A stretch of DNA of 35,989 bases from a virus: positions 1 to 35,989 of IMG/VR virus record IMGVR_UViG_3300046167_000263; one strand, given 5' to 3'. Positions within the stretch are counted from its first letter, which is position 1, and each line of letters opens with the position of its first letter. A program made the translations under genes and the position numbers. Positions 30,694-32,052 of the stretch are shown here, in pieces. The notes under the pieces were generated by a model that worked only from the letters and a program-made list of their open reading frames with translations, had not been told where the DNA came from and did not search any database.

Positions 30694-30897
30694 TTATCCT
30701 TTAAGTTCGTTTACTTCTGTTACTGATATTATCCTCCCTGTGCCGCCACGCTTGAACACGCAGCGACCACTGGGATCTGGTCTTTTCTTCAATAAAAGCA
30801 GGACAGCGGCCTTCTCGTCGTGCGCCCACTTGTACACCTTGCCGACGTAGCCCTCCGGCATATCGTCACGCTTGGTGCGTATCTCGTACTCAATCAT
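30694..30897 (-). CDS. Small basic hypothetical protein
   Basis: This 67-aa protein starts MIEYEIRTKRDDMPEGYVGK and contains RPDPSGRCVFKRGGTGR. It overlaps the methyltransferase 3' end by 8 bp, consistent with coupled translation. No known family is seen. Confidence 0.6.
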   Translation of the reverse strand: MIEYEIRTKRDDMPEGYVGKVYKWAHDEKAAVLLLLKKRPDPSGRCVFKRGGTGRIISVTEVNELKG

Positions 30898-32014
30898 ATA
30901 GTCGTTGTGACAATGTTACGAATGCCTTAGCTGCTGTGGCAGGGACTACTCCGTTTCCCAAGAGCCTAAGTCTGTCCACCCTACTGGAAGACCCATTAGG
31001 TGTTCGACCCAGTCCGGGTTCAGCTTGCCCTGTAACTCTCGGTTCTTCCCATTCGTGTTGGGGTTCGCCCGGTCGGGCAGGCCAAGCTCCCCACGAACCG
31101 CCATTGCACTCAGGCACTTGCTCGCCTGTGAGTTGCCTTTGATCCTGTATTTCTCCTCGCCCACGGTTGCTGTTGGCCAATTCTTGGCTGCCTTCCGGCT
31201 GTGGTTCATATCCGGGTAGTGAACCTGCTCCCTTAGATTCATACACCCTGCGTTCTTCTCCGCTCTGGTCTGAGCCAGCTTCTCTGGAGTCCGAACTATG
31301 TTCACGTGGTCGAATGCTTGAGGAGTATCCCAATTCTTCCCCTCGTGAGTCTCCACCGCATCCCGCAGCTTCGCCCCATACCAAGGACTGTTCGGATCTT
31401 GGCTGTGCTTGCTTCGGTATACTCCGTCCACTATCTCGGTTGGATAACTCCCCCCTGTCGTGTCGAAGACTGTCGCCGTTGGCCACCCCAAGGATGAAGA
31501 CTCGCTTTCTCTGATGAGGCGCGCCGACTTCTTCCGCTGAGAATATTCCTGCCGTTGCTCGGTAACCCAAGTCTTCCAGCTCTCGGAGGACATATTGGAG
31601 AACTGGTTCTCCGTCGGCTGTCTTGCAACTGAGGATCCCTTGTACGTTTTCAAGGAAAACAATTCTAGGTTGGCACTCTCTGATTCCGTCTGCGATGTAG
31701 GGGAAGAGGTGCCTGGGGTCTTCAGTAGCTTGACGCTTTCCAGCAGCTGAGAATGGCTGACACGGGAATCCTCCAGAGAGGATGTCCACGCATCCACGAA
31801 ACTTTCCGTATGGGAAGGTCTTAACGTCCGTGAAGACAGGTGCTGCATCCAGCTTTCCCTCTTCCATCTTTGCAACCAGGTTCGCGACAGGGAATCCTTC
31901 CCTCTCCACGTAAGCGACTTCTCGCAGGTTTGGCAGAACGCTTCTAAGTCCAAGCCCGATTCCTTCGTATCCAGAACATAGGCTGAGGTGTGTAATTGTT
32001 TTGGTAGTATCCAC
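30890..32014 (-). CDS. dcm: DNA (cytosine-5) methyltransferase
   Basis: This 374-aa enzyme transfers a methyl group from SAM to cytosine C5. Motif I is LSLCSGYEGIG (10-20), catalytic motif IV is GGFPCQPFSAAG (81-92; C85), motif VI ENVQG (122-126), motif VIII QRKRVF (168-173), and motif X RLRLLGNGVVPATA (348-361). The target-recognition region (~180-345) is polar and low-complexity (GYSSSIRPREHSSDS). It probably protects phage DNA from restriction. The best start is GTG at 32014, while an ATG two bases upstream opens a second long frame through the gene. Confidence 0.95.
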   Translation of the reverse strand: MDTTKTITHLSLCSGYEGIGLGLRSVLPNLREVAYVEREGFPVANLVAKMEEGKLDAAPVFTDVKTFPYGKFRGCVDILSGGFPCQPFSAAGKRQATEDPRHLFPYIADGIRECQPRIVFLENVQGILSCKTADGEPVLQYVLRELEDLGYRATAGIFSAEEVGAPHQRKRVFILGVANGDSLRHDRGELSNRDSGRSIPKQAQPRSEQSLVWGEAAGCGGDSRGEELGYSSSIRPREHSSDSREAGSDQSGEERRVYESKGAGSLPGYEPQPEGSQELANSNRGRGEIQDQRQLTGEQVPECNGGSWGAWPARPGEPQHEWEEPRVTGQAEPGLGRTPNGSSSRVDRLRLLGNGVVPATAAKAFVTLSQRLYD

Positions 32015-32016
32015 AT
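30946..32016 (-). CDS. Long open overlapping frame inside the methyltransferase gene
   Basis: Starting from the ATG at 32016, a different frame stays open for 356 codons across almost the entire methyltransferase gene. Its C-terminal half is not random-looking: WPTATVFDTTGG, then WPTATVGEEKYRIKGNSQAS, then LNPDWVEHLMGLPVGWTDLG. From memory, WPTPT repeats and LNP-WVE-LMG-P-GWT-L recur in annotated phage methyltransferase-linked proteins. The same DNA encodes VANGD or LANSN in the enzyme frame where this frame reads WPTAT. It may be a real overlapping gene, a conserved coding shadow of the enzyme gene, or a chance open frame favoured by base composition. Confidence 0.35.
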   Translation of the reverse strand: MWILPKQLHTSAYVLDTKESGLDLEAFCQTCEKSLTWRGKDSLSRTWLQRWKRESWMQHLSSRTLRPSHTESFVDAWTSSLEDSRVSHSQLLESVKLLKTPGTSSPTSQTESESANLELFSLKTYKGSSVARQPTENQFSNMSSESWKTWVTEQRQEYSQRKKSARLIRESESSSLGWPTATVFDTTGGSYPTEIVDGVYRSKHSQDPNSPWYGAKLRDAVETHEGKNWDTPQAFDHVNIVRTPEKLAQTRAEKNAGCMNLREQVHYPDMNHSRKAAKNWPTATVGEEKYRIKGNSQASKCLSAMAVRGELGLPDRANPNTNGKNRELQGKLNPDWVEHLMGLPVGWTDLGSWETE

Positions 32017-32052
32017 TGTATCTTTCTTTTAGTTTTAGTTTAGTTTAGTTGA

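Follow-up and report, generated by a model that had tools for sequence, protein, structure and literature searches.

M.EcoHK31I (YGGCCR) was, as reportedly set out by Lee, Kam and Shaw in 1995, an enzyme whose beta gene overlaps the alpha gene in another frame. Multispecific C5-methyltransferases of Bacillus phages (SPR, phi3T and rho11 type) carry several recognition modules of ~40 aa between motifs VIII and IX. In M.AquI (CYCGRG), a split C5-methyltransferase, the break lies before the end of the TRD. A published account describes M.EcoHK31I as requiring two polypeptides: motifs I-VIII and X lie on the larger one and motif IX on the smaller, and the predicted TRD was placed in the large subunit (PMC3404938). 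A search of the open-access literature (most subscription journals and REBASE lay outside it) found no general account of such overlaps, only M.EcoHK31I, M.AquI and artificial splits.

Here we analysed a locus in the window, a whole stretch of 35,989 nt of viral DNA (IMG/VR record IMGVR_UViG_3300046167_000263), in which two frames on the minus strand overlap almost completely. Both are open as the original prediction had described them: frame B for 356 aa from an ATG at 32016, and frame A for 374 aa from a GTG at 32014, 2 nt behind that ATG. The overlap is of the +1 type, codon position 1 of B being codon position 2 of A (Table 1). On the evidence of sequence comparison, we consider it highly probable that the two frames encode the two subunits, alpha (A) and beta (B), of one orphan phage C5-cytosine DNA methyltransferase with nested genes, in the arrangement of M.EcoHK31I.

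As M.EcoHK31I is described, the two loci agree in having motifs I-VIII and X in alpha and motif IX in a beta encoded in the other frame. However, almost the whole of beta in the window lies over alpha, from a start 2 nt ahead of alpha's own, the recognition region of the locus apparently lies in beta (as one to six cassettes among relatives) whereas the predicted TRD of M.EcoHK31I lies in the large subunit, and the locus is a phage-borne orphan with no restriction nuclease seen beside it. With M.AquI it shares the placing of the catalytic part and the TRD/motif IX part on separate chains, but motif X stays in alpha and the second gene is nested, whereas that of M.AquI follows the first. Like the SPR, phi3T and rho11 type, it is a phage orphan, and its tandem cassettes may correspond to their recognition modules between VIII and IX; those enzymes are one chain in one frame, whereas here the array sits in a second frame, on a separate putative subunit. 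In prokaryotes and their viruses, long nested genes on one strand for which selection has been shown in both frames are, to our knowledge, rare. This locus is such a pair; it has close to 100 relatives, brings its own internal controls and follows a clear enzymatic logic.

Table 1. Features of the nested locus in window coordinates (aa, residues of frame A or B).
Feature	Position	Strand	Details
Frame A, alpha subunit	30890..32014	-	GTG start, 374 aa; C5-methyltransferase large domain, motifs I-VIII and X
Frame B, putative beta subunit	30946..32016	-	ATG start, 356 aa, +1 relative to A; TRD-like cassettes and motif IX
ATGTG, overlapping starts (ATG, B; GTG, A)	32012..32016	-	70 of 79 complete loci
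GAAAG, possible ribosome-binding site common to both frames	32022..32026	-	Candidate from sequence
Alpha motifs I-VIII, A aa 7-178	31481..31996	-	Overlying B aa 7-178 also under selection
Catalytic Cys85, motif IV (GGFPCQPFS), frame A	31760..31762	-	Invariant in alignment
Alpha linker, A aa 188-311	31082..31453	-	Frame-A reading of the cassettes; no predicted fold, pLDDT ~35
Alpha patch WPARPGEPQHEWEEPRV, A aa 311-327	31034..31084	-	Identity by block 0.47 then 0.76; pLDDT 62
Alpha motif X, RVDRLRLLGNGVVPATA and helix, A aa 345-373	30896..30982	-	Begins within B, runs beyond B's stop
Beta cassette 1, type T4, WPTATVFDTTGG...GAKLRDAVETHEGKN, B aa 178-228	31333..31485	-	Cassette census
Beta cassette 2, type T1, WDTPQAFDHVN...NLREQVHYPDMNHSRKAAKN, B aa 229-279	31180..31332	-	24 loci, varying positions
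Beta cassette 3, type T11, WPTATVGEEKYRIKG... to motif IX, B aa 280-331	31024..31179	-	Cassette census
Beta motif IX, LNPDWVEHLMGLPVGWT, B aa 332-348	30973..31023	-	Conservation, relative L212 and selection

Methyltransferase motifs split between two frames

Alpha carries motifs I, IV (PCQ), VI (ENV), VIII and X, and C85, E122, N123, R169, R171, G353 and N354 are invariant in the alignment. The Pfam family DNA_methylase (PF00145) matched it at 4e-34 over aa 8-191 only. No TRD or motif IX was found in the alpha chain: the Pfam match stops at aa 191, and over motif IX frame A evolves with a wA (see below) of 1.10. The original prediction had placed all motifs in frame A, which is right for I-VIII and X and wrong for motif IX and a recognizable TRD. 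AlphaFold2 modelled aa 1-187 with pLDDT mostly above 90 and the motif X helices at about 80-98, with aa 188-311 unstructured at ~35, and a Foldseek search with this model returned M.HhaI as best match (E 1.3e-14, 184 columns). In the model, alpha is a C5 large domain whose TRD is replaced by an unstructured gap. Inside the overlap frame A is relaxed except at the patch WPARPGEPQHEWEEPRV, which is conserved and is possibly a piece of alpha that touches beta or DNA.

Beta matched phrog_1008, a family named 'DNA methyltransferase', over aa 72-350 (E 3.4e-14). The family also includes gp56 of Paenibacillus phage Shelly ('g55 internal gene') and gp5 of Catdawg; beta is a member by profile, and the family entry is silent on most members being nested subunits without a catalytic domain. 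Searches of PDB, Pfam and NCBIfam gave no useful match for beta, and Pfam holds no beta family; a sub-threshold HMG-box match was ignored. Because AlphaFold2 modelled beta alone (75 sequences) at a mean pLDDT of only 50, this model was left out of the fold search. The strings that had first drawn attention to frame B were confirmed: WPTAT occurs at aa 178 and aa 280, LNPDWVEHLMGLPVGWTDLG spans aa 332-351, and TGGCCAAC reads VAN or LAN in A and WPT in B. The best-conserved segment of beta is LNPxWVExLMGxPxGWT, with L, N, P, V, E, L, M and G invariant in all 75 rows of an alignment of the window and the collection loci (three GenBank-record rows were left out).

One-frame relatives identify this segment. 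In L212, whose protein is spanned end to end by PF00145, RLNPDWVEWLMGYP...GNSVVP aligns to KLHPRECARVMGYP...GNSVV of M.HhaI, motifs IX and X, in a second stretch that is weak but right in order and spacing. L214, of 723 aa, has several WPTP-type blocks, about five in number, between VIII and IX, followed by IX and X, and comparison of its protein with the beta profile gave motif IX at 98.5% probability. At the level of sequence, these alignments suggest that frame B holds the small-domain part absent from alpha. As cassettes and motif IX lie between VIII and X in such one-chain proteins, a two-subunit C5-methyltransferase from nested genes is most likely.

The original prediction had offered beta as an accessory or self-protection factor. 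With motif IX and an apparent target-recognition array, beta instead looks like the missing half of the enzyme. We think it quite improbable that beta is a real protein with another job, such as a regulator, inhibitor or self-protection factor, and no enzyme subunit: its N-terminal half (about 175 aa) is under selection and has no homology to a known domain, as that reading would allow, but beta also holds the very motif that alpha lacks and cassettes that one-frame enzymes place between VIII and IX.

For the two-subunit enzyme we propose that alpha would fold as the large domain, with SAM binding, the PCQ cysteine, motifs I-VIII and the motif X helix, and with an unstructured linker where a one-chain enzyme has its TRD and motif IX. 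Beta would give the small domain, with motif IX and one to six tandem WPT cassettes. The overlapping ATG and GTG would form one initiation region that launches both subunits, and these would pair into an active, probably multi-specific heterodimer. Methylation of phage DNA by this enzyme would shield that DNA from host restriction, and cassette swaps between phages would provide a fast change of specificity.

Both frames are protein-coding

To see whether the second frame could be open by accident, we kept protein A fixed and drew its synonymous codons anew, taking codon usage from seven other genes of the window. Frame B then contained on average 8.2 stops within codons 1-178 and 12.3 across the full overlap, and 0 of 20,000 resamplings left either span open. 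When B was instead held fixed over aa 178-350, 0.01% of draws left frame A open. Within the first 178 codons the third frame, which is unused, has five stops. The absence of open resamplings indicates that the two-frame arrangement is not due to chance.

To collect relatives, IMG/VR was scanned with each frame separately (93 stretches for B, 113 for A), which together with a few GenBank loci and the window gave 98 unique loci; some of the relatives with an intact B were gathered with frame A as the sole query. Frame B was open in all 75 aligned loci and intact through motif IX in 76 of the 79 complete viral relatives. Each of the three exceptions looks like a single local lesion in a frame that is otherwise preserved: L158 has a stop in B, L051 has one within motif IX, and L075 has what appears to be a frame-shifting indel. 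These lesions may represent sequencing or assembly errors or recent loss. The open frame of B varies widely in length among relatives, from about 255 to 550 aa, which implies that insertions and deletions in mid-gene keep both frames.

Selection was measured in 36 independent pairs with a script modelled on overlapping-gene dN/dS, which classed each difference by its effect on protein A, on protein B or on the two together (wA and wB for the two frames). The catalytic part gave a wA of 0.23. In the TRD segment wB was 0.25 and wA 0.53, over motif IX wB was 0.16 against the wA of 1.10, and over motif X, mostly past B's stop, wA was 0.09; the third, non-gene frame gave 1.70. Along the gene, constraint therefore passes from frame A to frame B and then returns to A. 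In the catalytic half the simple wB is uninformative, being 0.59 there and 0.56 past B's stop, and the slowing of synonymous change was therefore used for this part. Four-fold sites of A differed by 0.07-0.15 under B compared with 0.37 in A codons 357-374, after B's end, and with 0.19 in neighbouring genes of the same pairs. Synonymous change in A is thus 2-5 times slower where B lies over it than immediately past B's stop, indicating that the N-terminal half of B is under selection of its own. The dSS classes held too few sites to be relied on.

These results leave hardly any probability for frame B being a chance shadow of the methyltransferase, its openness and apparent conservation stemming from selection on A. 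In the first 178 codons A is indeed the more constrained frame, so that part of B's conservation is passive, and the raw wB there equals that past B's stop. However, the resampling and the 75 open loci, the 2-5-fold slowing of A's synonymous sites beneath B, and the relaxation of A rather than B over the TRD and motif IX, the latter present in B only, all run against a shadow, and the synonymous constraint together with the frame swap refutes it. Frequent stops in homologues and a lack of synonymous constraint had been named as the signs of a shadow; the outcome was the opposite, with B intact and constraint present, and the suggestion of a genuine overlapping gene is borne out by homologues that keep B open and by constrained synonymous sites in A.

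The two starts also argue for separate products. ATG (B) and GTG (A) lie exactly 2 nt apart in 70 of the 79 complete loci; the remaining nine also have both starts, at distances of 2-11 nt, as seen in L060 (ATGACATGG) and L084 (TTGACATGG). An SD-like word precedes the start in 62 of the 79 loci by a permissive pattern, and the shared ATGTG may yield near-equal synthesis of the two subunits. Programmed frameshifting from A to B after motif VIII, and possibly back to A before X, would instead join the frames into a one-chain enzyme. Such an A-B-A reading restores the motif order of a one-chain C5-methyltransferase, and one-frame relatives exist. Still, we regard it as highly improbable: B has its own start next to A's in 79 of 79 complete loci, B is open and constrained over the catalytic half, which a frameshift product does not use, and two shifts in opposite directions are needed. 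M.EcoHK31I and M.AquI, according to the same account, function as two chains (PMC3404938). Frameshifting could nonetheless add a minor product to the two nested subunits.

A hypervariable, shuffled cassette array

From B aa ~178 to motif IX, beta consists of tandem blocks of ~30-50 aa that open with W-(P/A/D..)-T. A census of 74 loci counted 248 such blocks, one to six per gene, in 53 types, a number that is approximate because types were called by a simple identity rule. Among 624 locus pairs with >90% identity in the catalytic DNA (516 nt), 8 had the same cassette string and 341 had no cassette in common. The window and L010, for instance, are 100% identical in catalytic DNA and read T4-T1-T11 and T4-T8-T2-T33, respectively. 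The cassette array is hypervariable and shuffled among loci, and every exchange has to leave two frames open. Because of this variability and of the position of similar blocks between VIII and IX in one-frame relatives, each cassette is probably a target-recognition module and may confer one specificity. The locus makes the idea that a cassette equals a specificity directly testable.

The neighbourhood holds genes for ERF, endonuclease VII, a PD-(D/E)XK nuclease and small proteins, and no restriction enzyme was recognized among the nine neighbouring genes scanned, so that an anti-restriction role or self-marking of phage DNA is likely. A gene for 67 aa lies downstream (30694-30897), with its ATG (30897) 8 bases inside the end of alpha (30890), and also follows alpha in relatives such as L121; overlap and recurrence together suggest that its translation is probably coupled to that of alpha.

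Relatives, layouts and annotation

A scan of 84,980 species genomes with the beta profile yielded 80 loci (146 confirmed stretches), from Acinetobacter, Clostridia, Verrucomicrobiota, Planctomycetota, Myxococcus, Actinomycetota, an archaeal MAG and others. The layout could be classified at 73 loci, a few of them from GenBank phages. Motif IX was nested in the +1 frame in 62, with motif X in frame A in 54 of these and uncalled by the pattern in 8; both IX and X lay in the +1 frame in four (the M.AquI layout), six were fused in one frame, and one had B downstream in +2. Database 'WPTPT' proteins, which the original prediction had proposed to look for over or beside C5-methyltransferase genes, do occur there, nested in +1 at 62 of 73 loci. 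Division into I-VIII and TRD-IX-X in overlapping frames was seen in L168, L176, L187, L190 and Mycobacterium phage Catdawg (gp6/gp5). In a tree of the alpha domain the fused forms fall within nested clades, with fewest changes of 3 for the fused label and 7 for all labels. In phages and in the Acinetobacter group beta starts close to the start of alpha; in many Clostridia its start lies within alpha, at about 130-180 nt. The family was carried by 7 of 99 genomes sampled from one genus and 5 of 95 from one order. The nested arrangement had been known from a single bacterial enzyme; in these scans it is widespread among phages and bacteria. This breadth across many phyla and phages, the paired ATGTG start and the hypervariable array appear to be new.

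Annotation at these loci often records one frame. In Synechococcus phages Ssp-JY39 and Sc-Yong805-2 (L002 and L005) only beta is annotated, as 'hypothetical protein', and the catalytic alpha in the other frame is unannotated; in Phage C75C1 and Acinetobacter phage ABMM1 only alpha is. Both are annotated in Paenibacillus phage Shelly (gp55 and gp56) and Catdawg. The 'WPTPT' proteins are therefore a real family (phrog_1008) and not, as had been suspected, a mis-annotated one. A nested pair explains both a 'DNA methyltransferase' family without catalytic motifs and why alpha alone or beta alone is recorded, and suggests that many phage cytosine methylases deemed complete amount to half an enzyme as long as the second frame is left out. 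We give an even chance to a broader proposal, a widespread class of modification enzymes whose specificity resides in a rapidly shuffling array of short cassettes in the +1 frame of their own catalytic gene, both subunits made from one AUGUG and each cassette adding one methylation target. If this is true, phages switch or stack protections by swapping ~100-150-nt blocks that are open in two frames.

The genome of Myxococcus sp. AM401 (L185, L194) holds at least three beta-family matches, with open frames of about 305-309 aa. The nearest bacterial-genome relative of the window's alpha is L235, on an Opitutae MAG contig (Verrucomicrobiota), at a tree path of 0.2. This nearness is a hint that the phage host may be a marine member of the Verrucomicrobiota, or that the L235 contig is itself viral.
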